In this document: one piece after another, positions 22,710 through 42,960 of the stretch
Layout of the letters: each line of letters opens with the position of its first letter
How positions within the stretch are numbered: the first letter of the stretch is position 1
Assembly (NCBI RefSeq): GCF_025399835.1
Contig: NZ_JAODVR010000001.1
Location: forward strand, 992,001 to 1,056,000
Source of the DNA: Haloarchaeobius sp. HME9146
GTDB taxonomy: Archaea > Halobacteriota > Halobacteria > Halobacteriales > Natrialbaceae
DNA: 64,000 nt
Direction: 5' to 3'
Made by a program: the position numbers and the translations under genes
Notes under the pieces: model-generated
The model's input: only the letters and a program-made list of their open reading frames with translations
Told to the model about the DNA's origin: nothing
Databases searched by the model: none

Positions 22710-23159
22710 ATGAAGGCATCCATCGACACGGTACGCGTCGCCGGGACCCAGGATGGGCCCGTTCCGGTGGTCGTACTCGAGGTCGAGGAGGACGACGACG
22801 TGTTGCCTATCTTCATCGGATTCGACGAAGCCATCGCCATCGTCCGTGGGCTGGACGCCACGGACATCGGGCGACCGCTCACCCACGACCTCCTGCTGGA
22901 CGTGATGGAGGAACTGGGCGGGCGCGTGACGAAGGTGGTCGTGAGCCGTGTCGATTCGGGGACCTACATCGCCGACCTGCACGTGAACACGCCGCGGGGC
23001 GACGTGGTGATCGATGCCCGACCCAGCGACTCCCTCGCGCTGGCTGCCCGCACGAACGCACCCCTCGAGGTCGACGACGACGTGTACGAGGACGGCCGCC
23101 GTGCCCGCGAGGAGTTCGACACGCTCGACGACATCCGTGAGGTAGCCGACTACGCATGA
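22710..23159 (+). CDS. Bifunctional nuclease (BFN) family protein
   Basis: This 149-residue protein starts MKASIDTVRVAGTQDGPVPV at 22710. It carries the DUF151/BFN pattern: VVLEVEEDDDVLPIFIGFDE, then RPLTHDLLLDVMEELGGRV and DARPSDSLALAARTNAPLEV. Related plant and archaeal proteins have been reported to cleave RNA and DNA, though the role in archaea is unclear. It overlaps the start of hisE by four bases (ATGA), so the two are translationally coupled. Confidence 0.9.
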   Translation: MKASIDTVRVAGTQDGPVPVVVLEVEEDDDVLPIFIGFDEAIAIVRGLDATDIGRPLTHDLLLDVMEELGGRVTKVVVSRVDSGTYIADLHVNTPRGDVVIDARPSDSLALAARTNAPLEVDDDVYEDGRRAREEFDTLDDIREVADYA

Positions 23160-23452
23160 CCGAAAGCACCGACGCGATTCTCGACGACCTGTTCGCGGTC
23201 ATCGAAGACCGCAAGGAAACGCTCCCCGAGGACTCCTACACCGCCAGCCTGTTCACCCACGAGAAGGGCGAGAACGCGGTGCTGGAGAAGCTCGGTGAAG
23301 AGGCGACCGAACTGATTCTCGCCGCGAAGGACGACGACCACGAGGAGATCGCTCACGAGAGCGCCGACATCATCTACCACCTGCTCGTGCTGCTCTCGAT
23401 GAAGGACATGGACGTGAGCGACCTGCGCGCGGAGCTGGCCGACCGCCGGTGA
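23156..23452 (+). CDS. hisE: Phosphoribosyl-ATP diphosphatase
   Basis: This 98-residue all-alpha enzyme starts MTESTDAILDDLFAVIEDRK. It has the HisE/MazG-type metal site in LGEEATELILAAK and HESADIIYHLLVLL. It is the normal single-domain length and not fused to HisI. It hydrolyses phosphoribosyl-ATP to phosphoribosyl-AMP, the second step of histidine synthesis. It overlaps the upstream BFN gene by four bases. Confidence 0.96.
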   Translation: MTESTDAILDDLFAVIEDRKETLPEDSYTASLFTHEKGENAVLEKLGEEATELILAAKDDDHEEIAHESADIIYHLLVLLSMKDMDVSDLRAELADRR

Positions 23453-23590: not shown

Positions 23591-24463
23591 ATGCAACGCA
23601 ACAGGCGTTCATTCCTGAAGGCGACGGGCGCATCACTCGGTTCCATCGGGCTCCTCGGGGCGACGGCGTCGACGGCAGCCGCCTCGGTCCACGACCGCTG
23701 GGAACCCGCGGATTCGAGCAACTACACGAACGCGAGCCGCACCGCGAGCGATATGCGCTGGCTCGTGATCCACACCATCGAGGGCTCGTACGAGGGCTGC
23801 ATCAGCTGGTTCCAGAACCCCGACGCGAACGTGAGTTCGCACTACGTCGTCGGCAACCAGTCGAACCAGATAACGAAGATGGTCCGACTGGAGGACATCG
23901 CGTGGACCCAGGGCAACTGGGAGTACAACGAGACGGGCGTCTCCATCGAGCTGGAGGGCTACGCCAACGAGACGGACTTCAACGACACCATCTACCAGCA
24001 GGCCGCCGAGGTGGCACGCCACGTCTGTGACACCTACGGCATCCCCACGCAACACCCGACGTACGATCTGGCACCCTGTTCGGCGTACTCCGGCGAAGGC
24101 GGTATCATCGGCCACAACCAGGTGCCAGACCCCAACGACTGCTCACAGGTCACCGGCGGCAAGTACGACCCCGGCAACACCTGGGACTGGGACTACTTCA
24201 TGTCGCTCGTGAACGATGGCTCGGGCGGCGGTGGCGGCGGGTGGTCGGACGGCGACATCGTCCACTGCACCGCCGACCTCAACACCCGCGAGCGGCCGAA
24301 TCTGGATTCGTCGGTGGTGGCGACGATGCCGACCGGCTCGAACGCCGAGATCGTCAATGGACCCACCGACGAAGACGGCTACACCTGGTGGGGCCTGCAC
24401 TGGCTTGATTACGACATCTGGGGCTGGTCGGTCGAGGCGTACCTCGACGCGGGCTACGCCTGA
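23591..24463 (+). CDS. Tat-exported N-acetylmuramoyl-L-alanine amidase-like protein with SH3b domain
   Basis: This 290-residue protein starts MQRNRRSFLKATGASLGSIG, a twin-arginine signal with an Ala-rich cleavage region near 35. Residues 50-200 form an amidase_2/PGRP domain: WLVIHTIEG (zinc His), SSHYVVGNQSNQITKMV and GHNQVPDPNDC (second zinc His). The usual third ligand before DPGxxWDW is not a His here (KYDPGNTWDWDYF); a nearby Cys may substitute. A Gly linker leads to a C-terminal SH3b-like domain (LNTRERPNLDSSVVATMPTG). Haloarchaea lack murein, so the natural substrate is either foreign bacterial wall or another polymer. Confidence 0.87.
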   Translation: MQRNRRSFLKATGASLGSIGLLGATASTAAASVHDRWEPADSSNYTNASRTASDMRWLVIHTIEGSYEGCISWFQNPDANVSSHYVVGNQSNQITKMVRLEDIAWTQGNWEYNETGVSIELEGYANETDFNDTIYQQAAEVARHVCDTYGIPTQHPTYDLAPCSAYSGEGGIIGHNQVPDPNDCSQVTGGKYDPGNTWDWDYFMSLVNDGSGGGGGGWSDGDIVHCTADLNTRERPNLDSSVVATMPTGSNAEIVNGPTDEDGYTWWGLHWLDYDIWGWSVEAYLDAGYA

Positions 24464-24553: not shown

Positions 24554-25516
24554 ATGATTTTCGAGAATCTTCCGACGACACCACGGTCGGAGGAACTCAT
24601 CGACAAGGCGTTCTCCCGCGCCGCCCGCGCAGGCCGGGCCAAGTCGGGACACGACGCCCAGACGTCGATGCTCCAGACGGCGTCGAACATCCTTTCGGAC
24701 AATCTGGAGAACGTCGTGACGGCCTGGCCGGACTTCGACGAGGTCGACCCGTTCTACTACGAGCTCGCGGACGCCATCGTCGACGTCGACGAGGTGCGCA
24801 AGTCGCTGTCGGAGGTCACCTGGGCCTCCCGCAAGACCGCCGAGATTCGCAGCGAGTACGAGGGCCGGATGCGCCGGAACGACCTCGACACCGCCCGCAA
24901 GTTCCGGAAGCAGGCGTTCGCGCGCCTCGCGGACGTCGTCGAGGAGGTCGAAGACGACCTGCTCCGTCTCGGTGCGGCCCGTGACGAGCTGAAGACGCTG
25001 CCCGATATCAACCCGGACGAGCCCGCAATCGTCGTCGCCGGCTACCCGAACGTCGGGAAGTCCTCGTTCGTGAACGCGGTCACCCGCGCCCGCCACGAGA
25101 CCGCGACCTACCCGTTCACGACGAAGGGTATCGGCGTCGGTCACTTCGAGCGCCAGCGCATCCGCTACCAGATCGTCGACACTCCGGGGTTGCTCGACCG
25201 CCCGCCCCAGGACCGCAACGACATCGAGGCGCAGGCGGTCTCGGCGCTCACGCACCTCGCGGACTGCGTGCTGTTCGTCCTCGACGCGAGCGCGAACTGT
25301 GGGTACCCGCTCGACGACCAGCTGGAGCTGCTCGCCGCGGTCGAAGACCAGTTCGGCGACGTGCCCGTCATCACCGTCTGCAACAAGAGCGACGTCTCTC
25401 GGGACGTCGAGGCAGACTACTACATGAGTGTGACCGAGGACGAGAACCTGGACACCGTCCTCGATGCAGCCGTCGACGCTATCGGGTACGAGCCCGAGCT
25501 GCCGTTCGACGGCTGA
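24554..25516 (+). CDS. NOG1 family GTPase
   Basis: This 320-residue GTPase starts MIFENLPTTPRSEELIDKAF, the NOG1 N-terminal helical domain. The G domain begins near 155 with G1 GYPNVGKSSF, followed by G2 region TTYPFTTKG (as TYPFTTKG), G3 DTPGLLDRP and G4 NKSD. NOG1 proteins act in assembly of the large ribosomal subunit in eukaryotes; the archaeal form is probably also ribosome-associated. The TATA-like box 30 bp upstream supports the start. Confidence 0.95.
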   Translation: MIFENLPTTPRSEELIDKAFSRAARAGRAKSGHDAQTSMLQTASNILSDNLENVVTAWPDFDEVDPFYYELADAIVDVDEVRKSLSEVTWASRKTAEIRSEYEGRMRRNDLDTARKFRKQAFARLADVVEEVEDDLLRLGAARDELKTLPDINPDEPAIVVAGYPNVGKSSFVNAVTRARHETATYPFTTKGIGVGHFERQRIRYQIVDTPGLLDRPPQDRNDIEAQAVSALTHLADCVLFVLDASANCGYPLDDQLELLAAVEDQFGDVPVITVCNKSDVSRDVEADYYMSVTEDENLDTVLDAAVDAIGYEPELPFDG

Positions 25517-29939: not shown

Positions 29940-30008
29940 GAGTTGGTGGCTCGGGGTAAGTCCTCGTCACAAGGGGCTCAGAGGGGGCAAGACGATTTCT
30001 GTTAGTAG
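29940..30008 (+). repeat. Dispersed island repeat, copy 1 (right part only)
   Basis: This copy contains GTGGCTCGGGG, CCTCGTCACAAGGGGCTC and the right end TTTCTGTTAGTAG, matching copies 2-4 at 30813, 34518 and 43233. The left half of the element is missing, so it is truncated. It marks the left edge of the accessory island. In one frame it reads as a false protein tail, so apparent open frames across it should not be called genes. Confidence 0.85.
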
Positions 30009-30044
30009 TTCCGTGCCGACGCCGAGTGGTAGTAACCTTTACCC

Positions 30045-30060
30045 AGTAGAACATTCTACT
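30045..30060. promoter_or_regulatory. Palindromic operator upstream of the toxin-antitoxin pair
   Basis: The 16-bp sequence AGTAGAACATTCTACT has perfect 7-bp inverted arms around CA. It lies 7 bp upstream of the antitoxin ATG (30068) and just downstream of a weak TATA-like stretch (TAACCTTTACCC). This is the expected place for autoregulation by a VapB-type antitoxin. Confidence 0.6.
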
Positions 30061-30067
30061 TCACTAT

Positions 30068-30343
30068 ATGGCCACCTCGGTGAAGATGGACGACGACACG
30101 AAATCCCGGCTCGAACGGTTACAGGCCGAAATCCGCCTGGAGACCGGTAAGCGAGTCACACAGCAGGAGATCCTCGCTCGGCTCGTCGAGCGCGCCATCG
30201 AGTCAAAGGCAGACCTCATCGATTCGTTCCGCGAGAAACGGGTTCCCATCTCCGACGCCGAGCGCGAGTCGTTCCACGACGGGATGATTTCTTCTGGAAC
30301 CACGACGAGCGAAGATGACATCGACGACGTGCTATACGGATGA
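30068..30343 (+). CDS. VapB-like antitoxin
   Basis: This 91-residue acidic protein starts MATSVKMDDDTKSRLERLQA. The N-terminal KMDDDTKSRLERLQAEI and RVTQQEILARLVERAI resemble a ribbon-helix-helix DNA-binding domain; the C-terminal half (SFREKRVPISDAERESFHDG) would wrap the toxin. It overlaps the toxin start by four bases (ATGA), typical of toxin-antitoxin operons. A perfect palindrome in its promoter fits autoregulation. Confidence 0.85.
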   Translation: MATSVKMDDDTKSRLERLQAEIRLETGKRVTQQEILARLVERAIESKADLIDSFREKRVPISDAERESFHDGMISSGTTTSEDDIDDVLYG

Positions 30344-30768
30344 GTGTCCTCGTCGACACCGGCGTCTTCTTCGCCCACCACGACAGGGACGCCGAGCGCC
30401 ACGATGCTGCAGTGGAAACGTTTGACAACCTCCTCGATGGCGCGTACGGACAACCCTACACGTGCGACTACGTGCTCGACGAGACGGTGACGCTGACGCG
30501 CGTTCGAACCGGGTCGTTCGAGGCGGCGGATACTGTCGTCAGCCGTATCCTCGGTGAGGAGCCGTTCCCGGACGTGTTTGAAATGGTTCACGCTGGGCCA
30601 GCCGAGGTGCGTGGTGCGCTGGAGATGTTCCGGACCTACGACGACCACGACCTCAGTTTCACCGACGCCATGCTGGTCCACCTCTGTGAACACCGCGATA
30701 TCGACGCCGTTCTGAGCTTCGACGACGACTTCGATGGGGTCGTCAACCGTATCGAGCCTGGTCGGTGA
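30340..30768 (+). CDS. VapC-like PIN domain ribonuclease toxin
   Basis: This 142-residue PIN protein starts MSVLVDTGVFFAHHDRDAER. The acidic active-site residues are visible: Asp in VLVDTG, Glu in VLDETVTL, Asp in SFTDAMLVH and Asp in LSFDDDFDGV. VapC toxins cleave RNA, commonly tRNA, and are neutralised by the upstream antitoxin. It is at the left edge of the accessory island. Confidence 0.9.
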   Translation: MSVLVDTGVFFAHHDRDAERHDAAVETFDNLLDGAYGQPYTCDYVLDETVTLTRVRTGSFEAADTVVSRILGEEPFPDVFEMVHAGPAEVRGALEMFRTYDDHDLSFTDAMLVHLCEHRDIDAVLSFDDDFDGVVNRIEPGR

Positions 30769-30812
30769 ACGCAGGTCCTTCTCACGCGGGTCTCGAAGTC
30801 GAATCACGACGG

Positions 30813-30924
30813 TCTACGAATAGATTCCTGAGAACGCCGGGTACAGGCCGTCAGAAGTCGGTGGCTCGGGGAAAGTCCTCGTCACAAGGGGCTCGGAGGG
30901 GGCGAGATGATTTCTGTTAGTAGA
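30813..30924 (+). repeat. Dispersed island repeat, copy 2 (complete)
   Basis: This complete copy runs from TCTACGAATAGA to TCTGTTAGTAGA. The two ends are imperfect inverted repeats (TCTACGAATAGA against TCTACTAACAGA read from the other end, 10 of 12 matching). This is the structure of a small non-autonomous transposon, with no coding sequence of its own. The 20 bp to the left (TCTCGAAGTCGAATCACGAC) is also shared with copy 4. Confidence 0.8.
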
Positions 30925-30968
30925 ATATTCGAGTTTCCGAGTTATAATTTGAATCTTCAGGTTGTATT

Positions 30969-31709
30969 TCAGTCACTCCGCCTCGGTTCCTTCAGTCCGA
31001 GGTGTTCTTCGATGGCCCTGAATCTATTTCCCCATGGGTCAGTTGGGTGTTCCCACCACTCATCACTTGGTCTGGTCATGTGGTCTGTAGCGATTATCAT
31101 TATCTGACCGTTAGATAGTTCTTCGACTCGCCATGCTGGACTTGAAAGAATCGTATCCCGTCCCAATCTCTCAATAAATCTTTCTGAAAATATTGTAGAC
31201 CAAAACACCCTAGGAAGTTGTCCTTTCTCGATTTCCTCCTTTGATATATACGGGTCTTCTTCGTTTCCAGCCTCAGCGAGCCCAAATGAAAACGAAGGCG
31301 TGAGGTAATTTCCCACCTCCGAAATGATTTCCAGAAGAGTTTCTAAATTCTGTCCGGCAGATATAGTAGTTTTACTACCGGATTTACCAAAGGCCGCTGT
31401 ATTAACGTGTATGCTTATTGTTGGGACCTCAGGAATCGAAGGAACGCCTGGGTTAAGAAGTAGATTGACATTAAACAGCTCTGATTCGATTTGGAGCCTT
31501 CCATAGTTCTCTTCAAAGATGGCCGAAGTCGAATTTTCTAAATTACCAAGATCTCGTTCCGCTAATGACTGTGAATGTTTATTCTTGTACTTGTAGCTAC
31601 GATGCTCCTCTCCAAGGACCACCTCACATATATTAACAACCTTACGGAAGTCAGATACTGTGAAACCTTCCAGACTAAGATAATGGTTTGTGAACCAATC
31701 GGTGCCCAT
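30969..31709 (-). CDS. Immunity-like protein (DUF3396/Imm52-type layout)
   Basis: This 246-residue AT-rich gene has no signal or membrane helix. The last third contains PRVFWSTIFSERFIERLG, then SPAWRVEELSNGQIMIIATD. The W..I.SE...E.LG....L..PAW.VEEL..G arrangement recalls the C-terminal part of DUF3396/Imm52-type immunity proteins that guard against bacterial polymorphic toxins (family assignment uncertain). A paralogue, broken by a stop, lies at 32154-32825. With no toxin directly beside it, this would be an orphan immunity gene. Confidence 0.55.
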   Translation of the reverse strand: MGTDWFTNHYLSLEGFTVSDFRKVVNICEVVLGEEHRSYKYKNKHSQSLAERDLGNLENSTSAIFEENYGRLQIESELFNVNLLLNPGVPSIPEVPTISIHVNTAAFGKSGSKTTISAGQNLETLLEIISEVGNYLTPSFSFGLAEAGNEEDPYISKEEIEKGQLPRVFWSTIFSERFIERLGRDTILSSPAWRVEELSNGQIMIIATDHMTRPSDEWWEHPTDPWGNRFRAIEEHLGLKEPRRSD

Positions 31710-31789
31710 ATCCAGTCTACAGTTTGAAACGTTTAGTAACTATCGTCACTTCATAGCCGAATTTATCCTTGTTTCGATTTGTCTATTTA

Positions 31790-31882
31790 CGCGCCTTACT
31801 GCACCGCTTCGCGACCGACGAAACGACCGTCGACACCGAGACCGCGGTCATCTACTTCCGGGCGTGTGCTCGCCGCAATTGA
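31790..31882 (+). pseudogene. C-terminal remnant of an unknown GC-rich gene
   Basis: A short high-GC stretch inside AT-rich DNA reads ALLHRFATDETTVDTETAVI and ends ACARRN with a stop at 31880-31882. It has haloarchaeal codon bias but no start codon or upstream body, so it looks like the tail of a deleted gene. The parent gene is not recognised. Confidence 0.35.
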
Positions 31883-31915
31883 TAAAGGGGGCACGACGAG
31901 TACCTTCACACCAGA

Positions 31916-32086
31916 ATGGCGTCCAGTACCGATTCCTCGCCGCCAGTTGACGAAGAAGCCCGCCGACTGTACGAGCGGTATCAGGCGGCCGAGAGCGACG
32001 AGGAACGCCACGCGATTCTCCTCGAGATGGGGAAACTGGATGGCCGTCGGCACGAAGAGATTTACGAGGCACTGGAAGACGAGTGA
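31916..32086 (+). CDS. Small acidic protein, first copy of a duplicated 56-codon gene
   Basis: This 56-residue protein starts MASSTDSSPPVDEEARRLYE, then RYQAAESDEERHAILLEMGK, and ends EEIYEALEDE. It is highly charged, probably helical, and lacks Cys or membrane segments. A second, frameshifted copy lies at 34735. A TATA-like TGATAAAGG lies about 30 bp upstream. The function is unknown; duplication next to two immunity-like genes suggests the unit moved together with them. Confidence 0.7.
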   Translation: MASSTDSSPPVDEEARRLYERYQAAESDEERHAILLEMGKLDGRRHEEIYEALEDE

Positions 32087-32153
32087 GCGTGTTTCTACGT
32101 CGGACTGTTACGGTCGCCCGACTGTAACGAGCAGGCGGGAAATACCCAGAGAA

Positions 32154-32825
32154 CTACGGATTTTGGCCGTCGAGAAGATAGCGATCCACTGGATGGTCTC
32201 GCTTGACGTCTGCCCATGGTGCTTTCGTTTTAATTAGTAGAACACTACCTGTTTCCAGTTCTTCAACCTTCCATGCAGGAGCGTCGAGTACTCTCTCTTT
32301 CCCACCAAGTTGCTCCATCAGAGGTTCTGAATAGATCGCAATCCATGGAATTCGTTCGATCGTAAAATCAGCCTCTACAGGGAGAACTTCGACTGGAGAC
32401 GGTCCAACCCCATGGGTGGGTTGATAATTGACAACATAATACGGATCCAGTTCGATTGCGAGTTCCCGAATTAGATCGACGAATGCTTTTGTGAATCCAG
32501 AATATTCTTCGAACGATTAATCCTCGTCATCTGGGATTACGTAATCTGCGGGGGTAGTAATAATTGCACAAACGTTTGGAATTATATCTAAGTCGATTCC
32601 AACATTTATATTCAGTCTAGTTTCACCGTGAACCCAGTATAACCGTAGCCCACCCCTCTTTTTAGAATCTAATTCTAATTCCATCTCGGTAGGGTCAACC
32701 AGTCTTCCGTCGCTGTCCTTTCCCTTAAGTCCAACCTTAGAACAAACTATGGGAACTCTGTCTACTACCGCTTTTTCATCGAGTTGGGATTTTGAGTAAA
32801 ACTTTACATTCGCTGTCCCTTCCAT
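32154..32825 (-). pseudogene. Immunity-like gene interrupted by one in-frame TAA
   Basis: An N-terminal part of 102 codons (MEGTANVKFYSKSQLDEKAV to VIPDDED) ends in TAA at 32517-32519. The same frame continues for another 120 codons to TAG at 32154. The second part contains PWIAIYSEPLMEQLGG and APAWKVEELETGSVLLIKT, homologous to and at nearly the same position as in the intact 246-residue protein at 30969-31709. Removing the one stop gives a protein of about 223 residues. It is a broken paralogue, or less likely two separate peptides. Confidence 0.7.
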
Positions 32826-32884
32826 ATCTACAGTTCTCAGTATTTTCTCGGTGCTTGTTTATACTAATACCTAAACAGGGAATT

Positions 32885-33121
32885 ATGGGCATCGAGATAC
32901 ATTATCACGAAAGGTGCGGCAAGTGTGGGAATATTAGAAAATTTTTTAAATTCGCGAGATATTGACTATGATGGATATTTTTTCCGCCACAGAGCGAGAG
33001 GGTTAAAGAGGTTGTTGGTGATGGTAACAAGCCGGTATTATTCCCGGAGAGAGAAAGTGAAGAACCGGTAGTAGGTCATGAATCCATAATGGAATGGTTG
33101 ACCCGTAATTGTTCGGATTAA
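32885..33121 (+). pseudogene. Decayed glutaredoxin/thioredoxin-fold gene
   Basis: From ATG 32885 the reading is MGIEIHYHERCGKCGNIRKF, with a CGKC redox-like motif, and it then hits a stop after about 26 codons. Two other frames continue the same protein: first IDYDGYFF, then VKEVVGDGNKPVLFPERE and VVGHESIMEWLTRNCSD. The order CxxC, then V.G.NKPVLF, then V.GHESI..WL is that of a glutaredoxin or GST N-terminal domain. Two frameshifts therefore disrupt it, one near a T/A homopolymer at about 32945. Confidence 0.6.
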
Positions 33122-33128
33122 AAGCCAA

Positions 33129-33245
33129 TCAATGTGGCCGGATTAAATTTCGGACTATGTTTAGGTAGTCTTCAATTGGCCCGAGTGGGACCCAATCATC
33201 CTCATCTAAACTACTTGCGAGTTCGAGTTCTTGTTCGTCAGTTCG
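33129..33245 (-). pseudogene. Gene tail fragment containing DWVPLGPIEDYLN (copy A)
   Basis: Read on the minus strand, this fragment gives LRGVTRTDEQELELASSLDE, DDWVPLGPIEDYLN, then IVRNLIRPH and a stop. It has no start codon and lies in another frame just downstream of the 340-residue gene. A similar stretch, DWVSLGPIEDYLNTV, recurs at 34874-34950. It is the tail of an unrecognised small protein family carried in the island. Confidence 0.45.
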
Positions 33246-33247
33246 TG

Positions 33248-34270
33248 TTACTCCACGGAGTACCCGTGCCGCTCGAGTTCTGCCCTCGCTATCTGTCGTT
33301 TCGACTTGTCTTCGTGGTGTTCCGCGACGTGTCTGAGATTCTGGCGAGCCTCCTCGGACTCGATATGCTGGCCGAGCAGGTCAGCTGCGCGCTGGGCCGT
33401 CTCGTCGTCTTCGTACCAGAGTGGAAGCCAGCTCTGTGCTGCCGCGATACTACGCTCGTCGTCGACCTCACGAAGTGCCATCAGTACTTCCCTACTTAGC
33501 CAGTCAGCACGCTCCGATACCATCGACAGCTTGTACTCGATCTCGTCGTACTCCGAGATTGCCGTTTCGAGGAACTCGGGAAGCGGGTCGTTCTCCTCGA
33601 TGTACTTGCGCATCTTCGGCAAGTCTACGTTCTCGAAGATGAACGCTCGCAGGTCTTTTTCCGTCCGCGAGACTTCGTACTCGTCCAACGACCCGGTTTC
33701 TCTGTAGACGGTTAGCATCGCCTCGGCATCGTCACGCAGCCGACGAAGGATGACGGGTTTCCGAAGATAGAACGGCGGGTCGTCTTCGTCCTCTATCTGG
33801 TCCAATTCGACTGTCACCCAGTCGATTATTGCCTGAGCAAGAGTCTCTTGATTTACCAGTATCGACTTCTCCTGGTCCAGATTGATAGGAGCTAATCCTT
33901 CGACATCCACACCGAGACTAACATACTCGTCATCCTCAGGGTACAAACCATCATTGTCAATCTGAATGAGTCCGAGTCGTGTTCGACCGTCCTCAACAGT
34001 TGTTACAAGGATGGCCTCTAGACCCGCTTCGTATACAGTGAATTTGGCCAGTATCGAATCCTCCCCCGTCAACAATCGGGGGACAGCCTCAAGGGAGAGT
34101 CGTTCACCGAAGTCCGAATCATCTACCCACCCTCTGAATTCGAACGACTCCCCACGCCTGTCTGTCACGGTCAGGAACCCGTAATCTTCGCTGTAAAGGT
34201 GTGCACGACGTATTTTGATGTCCCGCCGATTGCTTCCTTCGCGCGCCGATATAGTGTAATTCGCTAACAT
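33248..34270 (-). CDS. Hypothetical 340-residue protein of the accessory island
   Basis: This protein starts MLANYTISAREGSNRRDIKI at 34270. The N-terminal half is beta-rich (YGFLTVTDRRGESFEFRGWV, ILVTTVEDGRTRLGLIQIDN). The C-terminal half is helical, acidic and repeat-like (EYKLSMVSERADWLSREVLM, RQNLRHVAEHHEDKSKRQIA). It has no signal or membrane segment and I recognise no family. Its size and position among immunity-like genes make a role in the toxin module possible but unproven. Its base composition is intermediate. Confidence 0.65.
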   Translation of the reverse strand: MLANYTISAREGSNRRDIKIRRAHLYSEDYGFLTVTDRRGESFEFRGWVDDSDFGERLSLEAVPRLLTGEDSILAKFTVYEAGLEAILVTTVEDGRTRLGLIQIDNDGLYPEDDEYVSLGVDVEGLAPINLDQEKSILVNQETLAQAIIDWVTVELDQIEDEDDPPFYLRKPVILRRLRDDAEAMLTVYRETGSLDEYEVSRTEKDLRAFIFENVDLPKMRKYIEENDPLPEFLETAISEYDEIEYKLSMVSERADWLSREVLMALREVDDERSIAAAQSWLPLWYEDDETAQRAADLLGQHIESEEARQNLRHVAEHHEDKSKRQIARAELERHGYSVE

Positions 34271-34734
34271 ATTTAGCCCTCTTCAGATGACGCTAAACCA
34301 ATATGGATCTGCTCGATGTGTTCTGGAACAGCACTCTCTGATGAGCAATCGAGGCGGAAACCCATCCGCCTGATGACCACTCTTCCCATCCTGAACCGGG
34401 ATTCCATCGTACGACATCCGGCCCATTCTCTGGATACATAGTTCTAATCGGCACTGTCTAGTTAACCCCCCTGCGCTGGCGTTCGTCCATCAAGCGACTG
34501 ATGCGGTCGCTGAAGTTTCTACGAATAGATTCCTGAAAACGCTTGTTACAGCCCGTCAGAAGTCGGTGGCTCGGGGAAAGTCCTCGTCACAAGGGGCTCG
34601 GAGGGGGCAAGACGATTTCTGTTAGTAGATTCGGTAAGCAATCTCACCGTTTGGTTGAGGATATCGGAGACACTACATCGTGTCCTGTTCAGGGTAACTG
34701 ACACATACAGCCATCAAACACGTTCAAACGAGCG
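34271..34734. other. Low-GC spacer with a short open frame and repeat copy 3
   Basis: This 464-bp spacer holds repeat copy 3 (34518-34629). On the minus strand a 48-codon frame (34293-34439) begins MYPENGPDVVRWNPGSGWEE and continues WSSGGWVSASIAHQRVLF. It is Trp/Gly-rich and has no recognisable family, so it is either a fragment or chance. No other gene is seen. Confidence 0.4.
34518..34629 (+). repeat. Dispersed island repeat, copy 3 (complete)
   Basis: This is a complete copy nearly identical to copy 2, from TCTACGAATAGA to TCTGTTAGTAGA. The upstream flank differs from copies 2 and 4, so the element itself, and not a longer segment, was copied here. Confidence 0.8.
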
Positions 34735-34888
34735 ATGACCTCCAGTACGGATTCCTCATCGCGGGTCAACGAAGAAGCCCGCCGACTGTACGAGCGGTAT
34801 CAGGCGGCCGAGAGCGAGGAGGAACGTCACGCGATTCTCCTCGAGAGGAGGGGAACTCGATGGAGATCATCAATTGGACTGTATTTAG
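34735..34888 (+). pseudogene. Frameshifted second copy of the 56-codon gene
   Basis: The first 37 codons (MTSSTDSSSRVNEEARRLYE, RYQAAESEEERHAILLE) match the intact gene at 31916. Near 34845-34851 one extra base in a G-rich run moves the frame; correcting it restores ERGELDG and a stop at 34886-34888. The tail overlaps the fragment at 34874-34950. Confidence 0.65.
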
Positions 34889-34950
34889 GTAGTCCTCAAT
34901 TGGCCCGAGTGAGACCCAATCAAGCGCAGTATGACGATTCACCAGAGCAT
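34874..34950 (-). pseudogene. Gene tail fragment containing DWVSLGPIEDYLN (copy B)
   Basis: On the minus strand this stretch reads ALVNRHTALDWVSLGPIEDY and then LNTVQ. It matches copy A at 33129-33245 in protein and DNA sequence over about 50 bp. It is a remnant without start or stop. Confidence 0.4.
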
Positions 34951-35012
34951 TTAAATAGAATGTAAATAACCGGAATATTCATTCCACCTGCAAAGAAGTA
35001 TTATTATGCCCA

Positions 35013-35351
35013 ATGGAATTCCAGATTGATGGTGAAATACTCCGCATTAATGATTCACAAATCTCTCTACGTGGAGAAATCAAAGAAGTCCTCACGGCGG
35101 GAAACGTGGCAGTAGTTCTGCTCAAGGTCCCGGAAGCTGAAATTGATAACAGGAACGTTCTGGGAATCAACTCTTCTGGTGATCAGATATGGGAGATTGA
35201 CCCTGTTGCATCAGCCTCTGAAGAAGATGCTCCTTTCATAGATCTCGTTGAGAGAGAAGGAGAAATATGGGCCCTCAATTGGCGTGGTGACGAATGGTGT
35301 ATCTCACCTGAGACCGGGGAGATTAAGGAAAAAAACTTCCGGCGCTTCTAA
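35013..35351 (+). CDS. Probable cognate immunity protein of the toxin
   Basis: This 112-residue AT-rich gene starts MEFQIDGEILRINDSQISLR. The central and C-terminal part NVLGINSSGDQIWEIDP, EIWALNWRGDEWCISPETGE, IKEKNFRRF follows a pattern (NV.....G..IW.I....-..A..W.G....I...TG.I....F) that I recall from many small proteins adjacent to bacterial Rhs/CdiA/LXG-type toxins. It has no signal, so it would act in the cytosol. Its stop directly abuts the toxin gene's stop on the opposite strand, which is unusual, since immunity genes normally follow their toxin on the same strand. Confidence 0.65.
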   Translation: MEFQIDGEILRINDSQISLRGEIKEVLTAGNVAVVLLKVPEAEIDNRNVLGINSSGDQIWEIDPVASASEEDAPFIDLVEREGEIWALNWRGDEWCISPETGEIKEKNFRRF

Positions 35352-38300
35352 TTAAGGGATTGATATAGCGTTCCAGTTACCCTGAGACAGACTCTGTGCC
35401 TTCTTTTGCACGATTATGTTTTCTTCATCGTCTATTCTCCGTTTATTTTCGAACTTCTCTTCTGGGATTCTTTCACCTAATTGGAATTGGGTAGCTCCCT
35501 GTTCACCCCCGAAGTTTGCCTTAACATCACCTAATCTCACTTGGGTCCCCTCTGGAACGGTTACATCTGACACGTAAGTAGGTGCCTCTGGGAGGGAGAA
35601 TTTGGACTGGATTTCTTCAGCAGACAGTCCTTGAATTGATTCTTCATTCATCATCCATGCTCTAGCCTGATTATCTTCACCGTGTACTCTCACAAACTGC
35701 CGCTGTTGTCTGGTGTTGAACTCGACAACGATTGACCCGGGAGTATACGGATCTGCATAATCTGCAGGGAATTCCTTAGAATTCACCTCTGTCGCGGTCC
35801 TAAACTCAGTAATGCTTTCTTTGTCCAGATTGGCCTCAATCCGGTCGAACGCCCTGTCCACAGCAGAAGGCCCAATATCCGGTGAAGAGACAGTTTTCAT
35901 CAGACCTACACCTGCATCTGTCTCTTCAAGCGTCTCAACGAAGCGCCGACGGTTACTTGAATCAAGATTTCCGAACGTATCGGTCAGCCCCTCAATATCT
36001 TCTGCGTTCAAGTTGTTGTTTCGCTTGTAGGACCGTGCAACACGTCGCGTGAATCCATCTCGGAACTCAGTGAACTCCGAGTAGACGCTATCCGGAAGGT
36101 CATCGGAGAGCGCAGCGAATCCTTCGAAGACATCGAAATCACATCCGCCTCTATTCGGGACCGACTGGATTCGCGCACCAGACGCCAGAACGCCCCTACA
36201 GGCTACCTGGGAGGCGGCCTCGATGCCGTCGCGATCCATTTTCCGTAGGTCGTCAGCCACATCGTCGTCGGACCGCCTGAGCAGCCGACTGACCCGCTCT
36301 TTCGCAGTGTCCGACAGCCGGTTCAGTTTCCCCCCGACCGTCTTCGCGCCCTGAGTGACGCGCCACTGCTTGCCGACGGTCTGCACCGAGTCGAGCATCC
36401 CGTGCATCGTATCTGAGTCGATGCCAGTCCGTCTGGAGACACCACTCGCTAACCGATAGCCGGTCTTCGCCGCAGGTCCGGTGATGTACTTCGCTTTCGC
36501 ACCGGCCTTGGCCTTCTGAGCTTTCCGGTAGTAGCTCAGTGCCTTCGCGACCTTCGGCTTCGACGCCGCTTCCTGAACCTTGTCCAGCTTCTTGAACTTC
36601 GTCGCCGCACCACTTCCACCGGCAGCAGACAGCGCGACTTCGAAGGTGGCGACACCCGCGTAGTAGCCCTTCTCGAAGGCTTTGTAGTTCGATTCGTGTT
36701 TGACCTGCTGAGCCTGCGGGTCGTAGTAGGGGTTGGTGACCCGCATCTCCTGCTGGTACTGCTGGACCATCGCCCCGGGCAATTTCTCAGCGTTCTCGAC
36801 GAGCGCGACGTACTGTTTGTAGTCGGCTGCCTGTTCGACGTACCCGACCGGGTCCGTCATCGCTTTCCGGATGGTCTCACCCATCCCACCGGCACTCTTT
36901 GAGACACCAGAGACGTAGCCGAGCCCAGCGGCTTCCTCCGGACTCAGGTCGTTCAGGACTTCCAGTTCCTCACCGGCCTGGATGTAGAAGTTCGAACTGG
37001 AGAACCCAGTCACCGTCTTCTGATTGCCGTGGTTGTCGGCGACGGTCAGTCGGAGCTTGTTCGTCTGGAGTCCGGTCAACAGTGCCTTGTCGAGACCGAC
37101 GACGACGACCTCGGAGATGAGGGGTTCCTCAAGGTCGGAGTAGACGAGCGATTCGACTCGCTTCTTGCCATCGAGTTTGACGGTGTAGTTGCGTTCACCG
37201 CTGGGGTCGTTGACGCGGGCTTCGATGAGGTACTGGCCTTCGACACCGTTCTTGCCGCCCCAGCCTTCGCTGTAGATGACGTTATTGTAGTTCGAGCGCA
37301 CCACCCGAATCTCCGGCGGGGTGATGTCGAACATCGTGGGGTCCTCGTTGACTTCGAGTTCCCGAGCGTCAGGGATGCTGTCACCGTCGGAGTCAGTGCC
37401 ACTTGGGTCGGTGCCGAGCTCGAATTCTTGCTCGTCGGAGAGGGTGTCGTCGTCGGAGTCGCGGTCGTACGGGTCGCTCCTGACGGTCGGGTTCGAGACG
37501 AACTGGCCCGCGTTCGTATCGGGGTCAGCCGTGGCTTTCTGGAACGATTGCGCGTCCGAGTGGGTCGCGATGAGGTCGACCTCCCAGCCGTCGACTTCCA
37601 TCTCGTCGCCGATGGTGTCACCGTCAGTGTCGGGGTCGGCCGGGTTCGAGTGAAGCTCCTCGATCCAGAGGAACGAGCTGTACTCGGTTTCGACCTCTTC
37701 GAGCGAGATCTCTTCGTCATCGCGAAGACCGTCACCGTCAGTGTCCGCACTGTAAGGGTCGAGCCGGACCTGTGAGGCGTCGCCTTTGGGCAGAAGCCAG
37801 TGACGACGTTCGTAGGAGTCCGGGATGGTGTCGCCGTCGGCGTCACCGAACGCCCGGATGTGGCTCATCTCGACCGTGGCGTTGTTCACGGTCGTGACGT
37901 TGACAGTAATCTCCTCGCCGGCGAAGTAGGTCACCCAGAACTGATGGTCGTCCTCGTTCATCTCCGAGAGGTCCTCGGTGAAGCGCAGGTCGTCCTTCAC
38001 GAACGTGATGTTCGCCCGGGAACGCTCGTCAGGAATCTCGACGATGATGTCCGTCTCCAGGTAGGACGCTTTCGAGTCCGGAATCTCGACTTCGAACGAG
38101 GTCGTAGTTATCTCGACCGGGGGGCTGCAGGGCTCTTCCGTGCCGGGGTCGGTTTCGTTGTCCCCCGAACTGGAATCGTCCCCGGTCCCGCCACCGTTCT
38201 CTGGGTCGTTGATGTAGTCGAGGGTGCCGAGCGTGCTCTCACAGGTTTCATTGGTTTCCCCGCCAGTTTCACCACCAGTTTCGCCGTCACAGTCGGTGTC

Positions 38301-41300
38301 GCCACCGTAGCCGGGATCATTGATGTTGTCGAGCGTGCCAAGCGAACTCTCGCAGGTTTCGTTGGTCCCGTCGTCCGTCTCATCGTCACAGTCGGTGTCG
38401 CCACCGTAGCCGGGGTCGTTGATGTAGTCGAGGCTGCTGTACGTCTCCTCACAGCCACCATCGGTGGAGCCGTCGTCGGTGCCGCCGTCGGTACCATCAT
38501 CGCTGCCATCGTCGCTGTCACAGTCGGTATCGCCACCGGTGCCGGGGTCGTTGATGTAATCGAGGATACTGTACGTTCCATCACAGCCGCCATCGTCGGT
38601 ACCGCCGTCAGTGCTGCCGTCGTCGGTACCGCCGTCAGTGCTGCCGTCGTCGGTACCGCCGTCAGTGCTGCCGTCGTCGGTACCGCCGTCAGTGCTGCCA
38701 TCGTCGGTACCGCCGTCAGTGCTGCCGTCATCGGTACCGCCATCAGTGCCGTCGTCGGTACCACCATCAGTGCCGTCGTCGGTACCACCATCAGTGCCGT
38801 CGTCGGTACCACCATCAGTGCCGTCGTCGGTGCCGTCATCGGTGCCGTCGTCTCCGCCGCCGCCACCACCACAGGTGCTGGGGCAGATGATCAGTTGTGT
38901 CGTCAGGTTCTCCGAATCGTCCGTGAGTTCGTCGGACTCGAGAGATTTGGTCGGTTCGTCGATGCCCGGTTCTCTCGTCGGCCCGCTGGTTTTGATCGAG
39001 CTTCCGTCTTCCGTGGGTGTGCTGGCACCAACGACAATCGTCGAGCCACTCGTTCCACACTCACCGTCGCAAGTGAGGTTCGCATCCCTGCTGTTGAAAT
39101 CGACCGCTCTCTTGCCTTCGTTGGTCAGTGCCTTCTCCCAGGCGCTCGTGTCGATGACTGCGAAGTAGCCGTCCGAGTCGACGGTCGCTGACAGCGACCC
39201 GTTCTCTGCATCGGTCTTCGTCGGAACCCGATGCCATCTATCGGCACCAGACCCGTTCCAGGTGTAGATCGCGAGTGATTTCCCGGCAGTATCGAGGGTA
39301 CTCTGCTCGACGGGTATCGCGATTTCTAACCCGTCAACCTCACCTTGTTTCTGAATCTGGACGGTCTCGCTCGCGGTGACGTTCGTCCCCTCGTGGAACG
39401 ATGGCTCAGTCTCGACACTCGGTGCGTCCGGGACTTCCCCCTCAGCAGCGACTGTCACCGAGACGCCGCTCTCGTTGTCGGTCCTCGAGGACGAGAACGT
39501 CTCGTTGCCGTCGAGCACACCGTCGCCGTCAGTGTCGGCGACGAGCGGGTCCGTCCCTGCATTCAGTTCTTCAGCATCGTCTAGTCCATCGGAGTCTGTG
39601 TCGACAGCAAGCGGATCGGTCCCGTACTCTTCGACCTCTGCACCGTCGAGCAGGCCGTCGGTGTCGGTGTCGTTCACAAGGGGCTCCGTCCCGATTTCGA
39701 CCTCCCGAGTCGTGGTGAGGTTGTCCGAATCGAAGTCGTCCAGCGCGTCGTTTACGCCGTCACCGTCCGTGTCGGCACGAACTGCCGACAGCCCGTGCGT
39801 CGCAATCTCGTACTCGTCGGTGAGGTTGTCGCCGTCGGTGTCGACGACGAACGGGTCGGTACCGAGGAACTGCTCGCGGAACGTCGTGACGTTGTCGCCG
39901 TCGAAGTCCTCGGCACCGTCGATGAGGCCGTTCTCGCTCTCGTCCACGTCGGTCCGTGCGGAGTCACTGTTGTTGTCCAGCGGGTCCGTCTCGGCGGTGT
40001 TCAGCTCGAAGCCATCGCCGAGGCCGTCACCGTCGGTGTCACGCACCAGCGGGTCGGTCCCGTTCTGTTGCTCTTCGAGGTTCGACAGGCCGTCACCATC
40101 GAGGTCTTCCTCAGCGTCGGTGAGGTTGTTCGCGGACTCGTTCAGCCCGGTCGCCGTGGAGTTCGAGTTCACCGCAAGCGGCGACGTCTTCGTCTGGTTG
40201 ACCTCGAACGCGTCGGTCAGGCCGTCGTCGTCGGTGTCCGGGTCGACCGGACTCGTCCCAACTTGCTGCTCGGCGAGGTTCCGGAGCGTATCCCCGTCGG
40301 GGTCCTCGTAGGTGTCGTTCAGCCCGTCACCATCGGAATCCACCGCCAGTGGCGACGTGAGATTGTAGTTCACCTCGAAGCCGTCCAGCAGTTGGTCGTT
40401 GTCGGTGTCGGGGTCGAACGGTTTCGTCCCCAGTTCAGCCTCGATGGATGTAATCAGTGCGTCCTTGTCGAAGTCCTCGCTCCCGTCGATGACCGCGTTC
40501 CCGCTCTCGTCAGGCACGGTCCGGTTGGAGTCGGAGTCCGGCACCAGCGGGTCCGTCTCGGTCGTATTGACTTCGTAGCCGTCGGTCAGGTTGTCGGCGT
40601 CGGTGTCGGCGACGAACGGGTGCGTGCCGTAGAACTGCTCGTCCAGATGAATCAGTCCGTCAGCATCCGTGTCTTCGACGCTGTCGTTCTCGCCGTCCGA
40701 ATCCGTGTCCGAAGCCAGCGGGTCGATGCGGTCGTCGTACTCGATCTCGAAGGCGTCGGTCAGGCGGTCGTCGTCGGTGTCTGGGTCGAACGGGTCCGTG
40801 CCAACCGTGGCTTCGAGCGCGTTGACGACGCTGTCGGTGTCGAAGTCCTCCTGGCCGTCGTCGGTCCCGTCGTTGGCCTCGTCGACGTCGGTCAGCGGCG
40901 TGTCACTGTCGGCGTCGACGGGGCTCGTCTCGGTGGTGTAGTACTCGTAGTCGTCGGTCAGGTTGTCGCCGTCCGTGTCCGCGTCGACGGGACTCGTACC
41001 GAGTTCCTGTTCGAGGAGGTTCTGGAGCGTGTCGTTGTCGTGGTCCTCTTTGGCGTCGCCGACGCCGTCACCGTCGGTGTCTGCGACGGTCCCGTCGATG
41101 GGGTCGTAGGCGACTTCGAACGGGTCGAGCAGCTTGTCGTCGTCGGTGTCTTCGTCGAACGGGTCCGTGCCGTGTTTGGCCTCGACGTGGTTCGCGAGGG
41201 TGTCGTTCTCGAAGTCCTCGTTCCCGTCGATGACGCCGTTGTCCGAGAAGTTCTGGCCGACGAGCGGCGTGTCGCTGTCCTCGTCGAGCGGCGCGGTCTC

Positions 41301-42926
41301 CGTGATGTCGACCTCGTAGCCGTCTTCGAGCAGGTCGTCGTCGGTGTCGACGTCCAGGAGGTCGGTGCCGTGGGTCTGCTCGCGCACGTTGATGAGCGCG
41401 TCACCGTCGAGGTCCTCCTCGGCGTCACTGACGCCGTCATCGTCGGTGTCGGGGTCGTGGGGGCTGATGCCGTCGGTCTCGAATTCGAGGCCGTCGAGCA
41501 GGCGGTCGTCGTCGGTGTCCGGGTCGAGGGGGTCGAGGTCGTGTTCGCGTTCGGTGACCGAGACCAGGCCGTCCTGGTCGAAGTCCTCCAGGCCGTCGAG
41601 CGTCCCGTTTCCAGCCTCGTCGCGGTCGGTGGCCGTCGAGTCGCTGTCGGGGTTCAGCGGGTCGGTCTTCGTGGAATCGCGCTCGTAGTAGTCCGGGAGG
41701 CCGTCGCCGTCGAGTTTGAGCACTTCGAAGCCGACCTGGGGCGCGTCGCCGACCGGAGTATACGTGACTGTCTCCGGTTCGGTGTCTTCATCCTCGGTGC
41801 CGCTGGACTGGGCCGAGGTCTTGCCCTTGTTCTTGCCGTTCTCCTTCCCCTTCGACTTCTTCTTGTCCTTGCCGTTGCCTTTCTTGCCCTGGTTTCCGCC
41901 GTCGGAGTCCTCGTCTTCTGCGGAGCGGGCGGCGGCGTAGGTCCCGTCGACCTGTTTGTCGGCGACGGAGACGTTGATAGTGTTGACTGCTTCCGAGAGC
42001 GTAATCGTGAACTGGAAGGTGCCGTTCGCGGCTGGCGCGGTCGAGGTGTTGAGGGGGACCGTGGTCTGCTGGTCGCCGTTGAGGGTGACGGTGACCTCCG
42101 AGAGCTGGTAGGCCCGCGGGTCCGAGACCGTCCCGATGACAACCTTCTCCATCGAGCCGTTGTGGTAGGGGTCCTCGCGGGTGAGGATGGTGACCTCGGG
42201 CGTGCTGCCAGCGTCGAGTTCGTCGAGTGCTCGCTGGGCGTGCACCCACGCATCACCGAAGGCGCGGATGGCGCGTTCGCGGTATTTCTGGCGCTGTTTG
42301 AACGCGCCCTTCGCGGAGTTCGCCTGCGGTTCCTTCTGGAGTTCGGCGACCCCTTGCTCGTAATCCTGCTTGGCTGCGTCGAGTTGTGCCTGGGCAGCGT
42401 CGAGGCTGGCCTGGGATGCGCCGCGAGCACTCACGCGGTCGAGTGCGCGCTGTGCGTCTTCGATGGCGATATCAGTCGTTTGCTGGTCTGCCTTTGCGAG
42501 GTGCGTGGTGATCTCGTCGACGGTCGCGCGCTGTCCCTTCTTGTGGAACTTGGCGAGGTCGTGGACGATTGCGGCGTCCTGTGAGAAGATGGCGCGAGTA
42601 GAGAGCCGAACCGGGTCGCGATAGGAGGAGAGCGAGGAATCGATGGTGGAGATGGCGTCAGACTTCCGGCGGTCCTGTGCCGGGTTCTTGCTGGAGAGCG
42701 ATTGAAGAGAAGAGCGCGCGAGTTGTTTTCGAACTTTCGCTGGTGTGCCACCTGTGTCGGTGGTCGCGAGTGTGTTCGAATCGAGCTGGTCCGGGCCCTG
42801 TGAGAACTGGGAGGTGTCGAGTGTGGAACCGGGGCTGGCGGGCTGTGCCGATACCACGGGCGCGAATGTTGCAGTAACGATGAGGAGGGATAAGATTACA
42901 GCGTTCAATCCCTTGAAATTGTTCAT
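35352..42926 (-). CDS. Giant secreted polymorphic toxin-like protein with calcium-type repeats
   Basis: This 2524-residue protein starts MNNFKGLNAVILSLLIVTAT, a Sec signal peptide. In order it has an alpha-helical, coiled-coil-prone region (about 140-245), a Lys/Gly-rich stretch (about 340-370), a long array of Asp-rich calcium-type repeats with spacing like DxDxDGxxD (about 400-1150), a beta domain, a Gly/Thr/Asp linker (about 1350-1490) and four Cys-flanked repeats with LDYINDPG (about 1445-1575). A second Asp-rich array (about 1690-1865) and a pre-toxin region (VSGVSKSAGGMGETIRKAMT, GYYAGVATFEVALSAAGG) follow. The C-terminal domain (about 2395-2505: RQFVRVHGEDNQARAWM, YVSDVTVPEGTQVRLGDV, ANFGGEQGATQFQLGERIP) resembles polymorphic toxin tips. 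Confidence 0.75.
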   Translation of the reverse strand: MNNFKGLNAVILSLLIVTATFAPVVSAQPASPGSTLDTSQFSQGPDQLDSNTLATTDTGGTPAKVRKQLARSSLQSLSSKNPAQDRRKSDAISTIDSSLSSYRDPVRLSTRAIFSQDAAIVHDLAKFHKKGQRATVDEITTHLAKADQQTTDIAIEDAQRALDRVSARGASQASLDAAQAQLDAAKQDYEQGVAELQKEPQANSAKGAFKQRQKYRERAIRAFGDAWVHAQRALDELDAGSTPEVTILTREDPYHNGSMEKVVIGTVSDPRAYQLSEVTVTLNGDQQTTVPLNTSTAPAANGTFQFTITLSEAVNTINVSVADKQVDGTYAAARSAEDEDSDGGNQGKKGNGKDKKKSKGKENGKNKGKTSAQSSGTEDEDTEPETVTYTPVGDAPQVGFEVLKLDGDGLPDYYERDSTKTDPLNPDSDSTATDRDEAGNGTLDGLEDFDQDGLVSVTEREHDLDPLDPDTDDDRLLDGLEFETDGISPHDPDTDDDGVSDAEEDLDGDALINVREQTHGTDLLDVDTDDDLLEDGYEVDITETAPLDEDSDTPLVGQNFSDNGVIDGNEDFENDTLANHVEAKHGTDPFDEDTDDDKLLDPFEVAYDPIDGTVADTDGDGVGDAKEDHDNDTLQNLLEQELGTSPVDADTDGDNLTDDYEYYTTETSPVDADSDTPLTDVDEANDGTDDGQEDFDTDSVVNALEATVGTDPFDPDTDDDRLTDAFEIEYDDRIDPLASDTDSDGENDSVEDTDADGLIHLDEQFYGTHPFVADTDADNLTDGYEVNTTETDPLVPDSDSNRTVPDESGNAVIDGSEDFDKDALITSIEAELGTKPFDPDTDNDQLLDGFEVNYNLTSPLAVDSDGDGLNDTYEDPDGDTLRNLAEQQVGTSPVDPDTDDDGLTDAFEVNQTKTSPLAVNSNSTATGLNESANNLTDAEEDLDGDGLSNLEEQQNGTDPLVRDTDGDGLGDGFELNTAETDPLDNNSDSARTDVDESENGLIDGAEDFDGDNVTTFREQFLGTDPFVVDTDGDNLTDEYEIATHGLSAVRADTDGDGVNDALDDFDSDNLTTTREVEIGTEPLVNDTDTDGLLDGAEVEEYGTDPLAVDTDSDGLDDAEELNAGTDPLVADTDGDGVLDGNETFSSSRTDNESGVSVTVAAEGEVPDAPSVETEPSFHEGTNVTASETVQIQKQGEVDGLEIAIPVEQSTLDTAGKSLAIYTWNGSGADRWHRVPTKTDAENGSLSATVDSDGYFAVIDTSAWEKALTNEGKRAVDFNSRDANLTCDGECGTSGSTIVVGASTPTEDGSSIKTSGPTREPGIDEPTKSLESDELTDDSENLTTQLIICPSTCGGGGGGDDGTDDGTDDGTDGGTDDGTDGGTDDGTDGGTDDGTDGGTDDGSTDGGTDDGSTDGGTDDGSTDGGTDDGSTDGGTDDGSTDGGTDDGGCDGTYSILDYINDPGTGGDTDCDSDDGSDDGTDGGTDDGSTDGGCEETYSSLDYINDPGYGGDTDCDDETDDGTNETCESSLGTLDNINDPGYGGDTDCDGETGGETGGETNETCESTLGTLDYINDPENGGGTGDDSSSGDNETDPGTEEPCSPPVEITTTSFEVEIPDSKASYLETDIIVEIPDERSRANITFVKDDLRFTEDLSEMNEDDHQFWVTYFAGEEITVNVTTVNNATVEMSHIRAFGDADGDTIPDSYERRHWLLPKGDASQVRLDPYSADTDGDGLRDDEEISLEEVETEYSSFLWIEELHSNPADPDTDGDTIGDEMEVDGWEVDLIATHSDAQSFQKATADPDTNAGQFVSNPTVRSDPYDRDSDDDTLSDEQEFELGTDPSGTDSDGDSIPDARELEVNEDPTMFDITPPEIRVVRSNYNNVIYSEGWGGKNGVEGQYLIEARVNDPSGERNYTVKLDGKKRVESLVYSDLEEPLISEVVVVGLDKALLTGLQTNKLRLTVADNHGNQKTVTGFSSSNFYIQAGEELEVLNDLSPEEAAGLGYVSGVSKSAGGMGETIRKAMTDPVGYVEQAADYKQYVALVENAEKLPGAMVQQYQQEMRVTNPYYDPQAQQVKHESNYKAFEKGYYAGVATFEVALSAAGGSGAATKFKKLDKVQEAASKPKVAKALSYYRKAQKAKAGAKAKYITGPAAKTGYRLASGVSRRTGIDSDTMHGMLDSVQTVGKQWRVTQGAKTVGGKLNRLSDTAKERVSRLLRRSDDDVADDLRKMDRDGIEAASQVACRGVLASGARIQSVPNRGGCDFDVFEGFAALSDDLPDSVYSEFTEFRDGFTRRVARSYKRNNNLNAEDIEGLTDTFGNLDSSNRRRFVETLEETDAGVGLMKTVSSPDIGPSAVDRAFDRIEANLDKESITEFRTATEVNSKEFPADYADPYTPGSIVVEFNTRQQRQFVRVHGEDNQARAWMMNEESIQGLSAEEIQSKFSLPEAPTYVSDVTVPEGTQVRLGDVKANFGGEQGATQFQLGERIPEEKFENKRRIDDEENIIVQKKAQSLSQGNWNAISIP
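38593..38830 (-). repeat. Tandem coding repeats in the toxin linker
   Basis: About five copies of a 27-bp unit (38593-38733) encode GGTDDGSTD, and about four copies of a 24-bp unit (38755-38830) encode DDGTDGGT. They are in frame and specify a flexible acidic Gly/Thr/Asp linker. Repeat number could vary between strains. This is a coding minisatellite and not a CRISPR array, as there are no unique spacers. Confidence 0.8.
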
Positions 42927-42950
42927 GTTACTGAGACTGTCTTTTCCAGC

Positions 42951-42960
42951 ATAATTTAAT
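42951..42960 (-). promoter_or_regulatory. TATA-like box of the toxin gene
   Basis: Minus-strand ATTAAATTAT lies 25-34 bp upstream of the ATG at 42926, giving a leaderless transcript and supporting that start over a longer upstream frame. The box is strong compared with most in this window. Confidence 0.55.

Follow-up and report, generated by a model that had tools for sequence, protein, structure and literature searches.

A probable secreted AmpD-class amidase acting on bacterial peptidoglycan in Haloarchaeobius sp. HME9146

The gene at 23591-24463 of the window, by which we mean the whole 64,000-nucleotide stretch of DNA analysed here, probably specifies an extracellular enzyme of the AmpD/AmiE (Amidase_2) class, a zinc-dependent N-acetylmuramoyl-L-alanine amidase with bacterial peptidoglycan as its substrate. 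The basis of this reading is the domain, the fold match and the conserved site, together with gene position, selection, the partner domains of relatives and the absence of PF00905. The protein would fold in the cytoplasm, leave through the Tat pathway and be released without a lipid anchor; its acidity would adapt it to brine, and an SH3b-like domain would hold it on bacterial walls. By analogy with AmpD, zinc bound by H61, H175 and D193 would activate water with assistance from E120 and K191, and the bond cut would be the one joining N-acetylmuramic acid to L-alanine. The expected outcome would be that bacteria in the same brine are weakened or lysed, or that their walls are digested.

Domain architecture and zinc site

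The open reading frame, 23591-24463 on the forward strand, begins with ATG and specifies 290 residues, which divide as follows.

23591..24463, + strand: whole gene, predicted exported Amidase_2 plus SH3b-like protein, 290 aa (ORF, Pfam)
23591..23686, + strand: Tat-type signal region, residues 1-32, with RRSFLK, hydrophobic core and AAAS (sequence; cleavage site inferred by eye)
23699..24220, + strand: amidase domain, residues 37-210 (Pfam, profile alignment, AlphaFold model, fold match)
23771..23773, + strand: H61, predicted first zinc ligand (aligned with His of AmpDh2 and AmiD)
23948..23950, + strand: E120, position of the AmpD catalytic Glu (alignment)
24113..24115, + strand: H175, predicted second zinc ligand (alignment)
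24161..24163, + strand: K191, AmpD Lys position two before the Asp ligand (alignment)
24167..24169, + strand: D193, predicted third zinc ligand, AmpD-type Asp (alignment)
24221..24241, + strand: glycine-rich linker, residues 211-217 (sequence; pLDDT <50 at 211-215)
24242..24460, + strand: SH3b-like domain, residues 218-290 (homology; beta-strands in model)

Residues 54-196 match Amidase_2 (PF01510) at 83.9 bits against a Pfam cut-off of 26, a match that takes in positions 4-131 of the 131 in the profile. The protein was modelled with AlphaFold (mean pLDDT 81.6, pTM 0.65, with residues 1-28 and 211-215 below 50), and the top solved-structure match of the model by VIA-align is the AmpD chain 2y2b_B (Z 18.0, rmsd 2.2, 152 residues). 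Foldseek likewise returns AmpD first (E 1.1e-8), and phage and bacterial amidases and PGRPs follow AmpD in the structure matches. An earlier note on this DNA had described an Amidase_2/PGRP-type domain, and both the Pfam score and the AmpD fold bear it out. The profile match, with the purifying selection described below, rules out a chance reading frame.

The same note named an SH3b domain and a Tat signal, and each holds in part. Against SH3_3 (PF08239) the C-terminal region reaches 14.4 bits, under the Pfam cut-off of 27, but its identity to the pair of C-terminal copies of Halorubellus salinus is 71% and 46%, and the orthologue that carries them scores 30.8 bits and so passes; for these reasons the domain is called SH3b-like by homology only. 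At the N-terminus the RRSFLK motif, the hydrophobic stretch and AAAS are plain to see, yet the Tat profiles stay under their cut-offs (13.9 versus 22.7 in Pfam, 13.8 versus 16.7 in NCBIfam). The twin-arginine position reads RRSFL, RRQFL, RRQFL and RRDIL in the congeners G001, G003 and G004 and in Halorubellus salinus, respectively. These sub-threshold SH3_3 and Tat scores count against the amidase reading. As no lipobox cysteine follows the signal, the protein is probably released rather than lipid-anchored. The pI computed for residues 33-290 is 4.09, with 15% Asp+Glu and 3.5% Lys+Arg, an acidity that would fit, as expected, a protein working in brine. A scan for bacterial-type promoters and terminators found none. 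An upstream CTATAAA, noticed by eye, was considered as a conserved archaeal promoter and rejected on its absence from G001 and Halorubellus; no claim is made for it.

A profile of 16 relatives retrieved the solved chains of AmpD (E 9.6e-17), AmpDh2, AmiD, XlyA and AmpDh3. In the AmpD alignment, E120, H175, K191 and D193 correspond to the Glu of SIGIELEG, GH and K-T-D-P-G, with D193 lying in K-Y-D-P-G opposite K-T-D-P-G of AmpD, and H61 is covered by the AmpDh2 and AmiD alignments. H61, E120, H175 and D193 are invariant among the 16 profile sequences; K191 varies. One published source gives the AmpD triad as His/His/Asp and those of Ts2631 and T7 lysozyme as His/His/Cys (PMC6361986), and another assigns His/His/Asp to AmiE and AmpD and His/His/Cys to T7 lysozyme (PMC7404271). 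H61, H175 and D193 with E120 and K191 thus reproduce the His/His/Asp triad, Glu and Lys of an AmpD/AmiE-type zinc amidase. The third zinc ligand had earlier been called altered; aligned with AmpD, D193 proves to be the ordinary Asp of this class. Loss of all zinc ligands, one finding that was to refute the original proposal, does not apply, the ligands being all present.

Across 83 compared relatives (79 plus eight sequences, minus three phage endolysins and the protein of Streptomyces plasmid pCQ4, with the broken copies L040/L061 and L065 standing outside the count), His-Glu-His plus Asp or Cys is intact in every one, which rules out a dead active site. It also bears on whether the product could be a PGRP-like sensor or decoy that binds without catalysis, as many eukaryotic PGRPs of the same fold do according to PMC6361986; in such a protein loss of the zinc ligands and Glu would be expected, and we regard this as very improbable.

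Chromosomal site, distribution and family tree

The gene lies between two conserved neighbours.

23156..23452, + strand: hisE-type phosphoribosyl-ATP diphosphatase, conserved left neighbour (TIGR03188, 99.2 bits)
24554..25516, + strand: NOG1-type GTPase, conserved right neighbour (PF17835, PF06858)

The order hisE-amidase-NOG1 recurs in four of the six genomes of the genus (the window genome G000, G001, G003 and G004) and in Halorubellus salinus, a member of another genus (L049); G003, G004 and Halorubellus carry a second SH3b copy. The congeners G002 and G005 have no Amidase_2, and there hisE and NOG1 adjoin with about 70-75 bases between the matches. Compared with the G001 orthologue by the Nei-Gojobori method, the amidase gives dN 0.062 and dS 0.395 (dN/dS about 0.16), and the neighbouring GTPase dN 0.032 and dS 0.321. 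Synteny and dN/dS together imply that the gene has long stood at this site under purifying selection, and that it was lost from, or never gained by, two species. For the window copy, the conserved chromosomal site rules out a recent plasmid gene, and the syntenic orthologues in other haloarchaeal genomes rule out bacterial contamination. A viral origin was also considered and rejected; viral contigs gave three pattern-matching stretches, none of them confirmed by tblastn. Two features of the site count against the amidase reading, namely that the surrounding genes are of a housekeeping kind and that two of the six genus members do without Amidase_2.

Elsewhere in the window, an ORF of 2553 aa (35352-43013, reverse strand) carries TSP3-type repeats (PF18884, five stretches), while its C-terminal region matches nothing in Pfam, and adjoins a stretch of low G+C content (30001-36000, 49-52%); it may be the other antagonistic system that the earlier note had in mind. 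Two ABC permeases, a Tat-lipoprotein-like binding protein and a large secreted glycosidase-like protein, all named by eye from the ORFs, occupy 43426-49547 on the reverse strand.

Within the family, 31 of 125 genomes have Amidase_2; in the haloarchaeal class it occurs in 50 of 391 species genomes and 20 of 86 genera; two of those 50 genomes count solely on divergent Amidase_2 proteins that the family profile does not match (L144 in G085, L145 in G387). The window genome has a single Amidase_2 gene. No match to the transpeptidase family PF00905 was found in it, although 10 of 14 controls have one; the description of the organism as an archaeon without murein is supported to the extent of this single family. 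PF01832 and PF01471 gave no match in the window genome either, and the single M23 protein that it encodes, on a different contig, shows no other Pfam domain, all of which counts against the amidase reading.

Ten relatives were scanned for additional domains, and SH3_3 (3/10), PG_binding_1 (2/10) and Glucosaminidase (2/10) exceed their cut-offs. Such fusions make bacterial peptidoglycan the likely target. The intact site, the partner domains of relatives, the lack of PF00905 and the published precedent (PMC12352652) support the earlier claim that the enzyme acts on no murein of its own cell, its target being probably bacterial.

Haloarchaeal surface glycans are diverse, and stable vertical inheritance at one site would suit a household function, so the domain might have been redirected to an archaeal surface glycan, glycoprotein or peptide. 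The complete AmpD-type site, the fusions to SH3_3, PG_binding_1 or Glucosaminidase seen in relatives, and the dispensability of the gene in two congeners all argue against this, and we consider it improbable.

We describe each site by its His, Glu, His, the residue two before the ligand, and the ligand. The 79 aligned domains comprise 40 HEHHD, 6 HEHKD, 12 HEHRC, 9 HEHKC and 8 HEHTC, one HEHHC (phage) and three gapped sequences (two phage endolysins and the Streptomyces plasmid protein); eight further places, outside the tree, are HEHHD (5) and HEHKD (3). All 29 haloarchaeal Cys forms (L002-L011, L016-L030, L044 and L046-L048) fall in a single clade (SH-aLRT 99.6, bootstrap 100) that adjoins Asp-type haloarchaeal sequences, and Asp occupies the third-ligand position in all 15 bacterial tree sequences that have a letter there. 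The simplest reading is that one Asp-to-Cys change occurred in the haloarchaeal family, on a tree whose root is uncertain owing to the very long phage branch. An attempt to name a bacterial donor was dropped, the phage outgroup branch measuring 1.73 substitutions and several deep nodes being weakly supported. Eleven loci are outside the tree alignment (L001, L012, L037, L040, L042, L061, L065, L069, L119, L120 and L122), either as duplicates or re-fetched copies (L122 is L013 fetched again) or, for L040/L061 and L065, as broken or partial genes.

Some sequences of this set deserve separate mention. The amidases L053 and L055, from metagenome-assembled genomes labelled Thermoprotei and Halobacteriales, cluster with bacterial sequences (91.8/94), by either binning contamination or separate transfers. 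In Halorubellus salinus a second Amidase_2 copy (L065:5986-6369) is cut short, its domain reaching only profile position 68 of 131; it runs into sequence resembling the glucosaminidase end of fused paralogues and looks like a decayed fusion. The amidase frame of Halorussus litoreus (L040/L061) has neither an in-frame Met nor a Tat start; either the gene is broken or its sequence contains an error.

Probable muropeptide loci in other haloarchaea

Halorussus limi, H. aquaticus and H. vallis each carry a plasmid on which an amidase gene of this family lies with genes for AnmK, a beta-lactamase-family serine hydrolase, NamZ and NagZ; nearby are genes for two permeases, two ATPases and an SBP_bac_5 protein. 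In H. limi, AnmK scores 453 against an equivalog cut-off of 387 and NagZ 224 against 207 (NF003740), and NamZ has both of its Pfam halves. By eye, the amidase and the binding protein of these loci begin with Tat-type signals, and NamZ, NagZ and AnmK with none. The H. limi cluster spans L073:6825-30295, with versions at L074, L075 and L132-L135; its contents are AnmK, NamZ, often NagZ and the serine hydrolase, an Opp-type importer and an IclR regulator, and it also carries a 391-aa 'putative glycoside hydrolase' without a Pfam match. Among the versions in four other NamZ genomes, that of G180 includes the amidase and those of G099, G188 and G146 do not; NagZ is present in the G099 and G188 regions and was not found in those of G180 and G146. 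Two further haloarchaeal plasmids, those of Halocatena salina (one of three places viewed) and Haladaptatus halobius, complete the set that carries a homologue, and neither has such a cluster within 15 kb.

NamZ is found in 16 of the 391 genomes, and AnmK in 15 of these and nowhere else, with the two forming one cluster in all seven regions examined. Amidase_2 accompanies NamZ in 11 of 16 genomes, versus 39 of the 375 others, and at the genus level in 8 of 12 versus 12 of 74; the counts are uncorrected for ancestry, and shared ancestry inflates the association. Only two of the 11 genomes having both (G180 and G410, from the listed coordinates) have the amidase beside NamZ. Judging from gene content, the Halorussus-type locus probably serves muropeptide use. 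Bacillus subtilis has a comparable set of AmiE, NagZ and NamZ. Among the matches listed in the open-access literature, none describes haloarchaea that use muropeptides, and such a locus in this group is possibly new.

The proximity of some relatives to genes that look suited to the consumption of wall fragments makes feeding a serious alternative to warfare. The window enzyme could digest the walls of dead or living bacteria for uptake of the stem peptides, the sugar part going unused here, a tentative reading that draws on the loci of the three Halorussus plasmids, where AnmK, NamZ and NagZ accompany an Opp-type importer, and on the co-occurrence just described. Against it, neither AnmK nor NamZ has a match in the window genome or its five congeners, which implies that the full feeding pathway is unavailable and that only the peptides could be used. 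The amidases borne in the clusters also lie on another branch of the tree and have no SH3b, five of the 16 NamZ genomes are without Amidase_2, and the lack of correction for ancestry weakens the counts. A broader proposal, that some haloarchaea eat peptidoglycan by way of an exported Amidase_2, an Opp-type importer and cytoplasmic NamZ, NagZ and AnmK, with the window amidase a stand-alone supplier of stem peptides, we think rather unlikely.

Comparison with known systems and the purpose of the enzyme

According to Strock et al. 2025 (PMC12352652), 175 of 3,706 archaeal genomes encode modular peptidoglycan hydrolases, and two of these enzymes, both of Halogranum salarium, kill a halophilic bacterium, so that the concept of haloarchaeal antibacterial peptidoglycan hydrolases is already known. 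Those enzymes resemble the window protein in being haloarchaeal and patchily distributed and in having a Tat-type signal (here a motif with sub-threshold profile scores), a catalytic domain with one of wall-binding type, and peptidoglycan as target (predicted here). They differ in composition, Woldo being an M23 and Danwoldo a glucosaminidase protein with two PG_binding_1 domains each, whereas the window protein joins Amidase_2 to SH3b. Of the modular definition used there, the window protein has the catalytic part, and its binding domain is sub-threshold here and above threshold in the orthologue; a search for catalytic plus binding domains at the Pfam cut-off would therefore miss it.

With AmpD, AmpDh2, AmiD and AmiE the window protein shares the fold, the zinc ligands and the Glu and Lys positions; unlike them it is archaeal and has a predicted export signal and a C-terminal SH3b-like domain. 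AmpD is specific for anhydro-muropeptides, according to PMC7404271. The window protein scores 34.8 bits against the AmpD equivalog NF008758 (NCBIfam), under its cut-off of 143, and thus belongs to the same class without being AmpD itself. T7-lysozyme-type amidases and PGRPs have the fold and the first two ligands in common with it but use Cys as the third, a form also present in the separate haloarchaeal Cys clade of the window amidase's own family. In the plasmid and phage collections the nearest bacterial and phage homologues are amidases of Streptomyces and Nonomuraea (at most about 42% identity) and endolysins of Streptomyces phages (at most 35%); the phage relatives come from 18 records, all of Streptomyces phages, with identities of 29-35%. 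All plasmid and phage records cover less than 80% of the query, which implies that their homology does not extend to the SH3b part.

The enzyme may be a weapon that kills bacterial competitors by breaking their walls, a tentative reading about as probable as that of food. Woldo and Danwoldo kill Halalkalibacterium halodurans (PMC12352652), and the window protein is predicted to be unanchored and to bear a signal and a domain of wall-binding type; its occurrence is patchy (31 of the 125 family genomes). Its chromosomal site, conserved in two genera, is nevertheless unlike the plasmid bias that Strock et al. report; no clustering with other antibacterial genes was seen, and homologues are present in catabolic loci. 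Of the interpretation originally proposed for this gene, a probably bacterial target is supported; antagonism stays a candidate purpose, against which stand the probable muropeptide loci of homologues in other haloarchaea and a conserved chromosomal site unlike that of a transient plasmid weapon. We weight a peptidoglycan amidase activity highly and its use as a weapon or for peptide scavenging about equally, and the enzyme may serve both.

If the feeding reading is true, killing of bacteria would be predation and not competition. To the few archaeal wall-cutting enzymes the window gene adds a case that is chromosomally fixed and long inherited, and the finding of NamZ with AnmK gives two testable answers, weapon or food, to the question of what such enzymes do for an archaeon.
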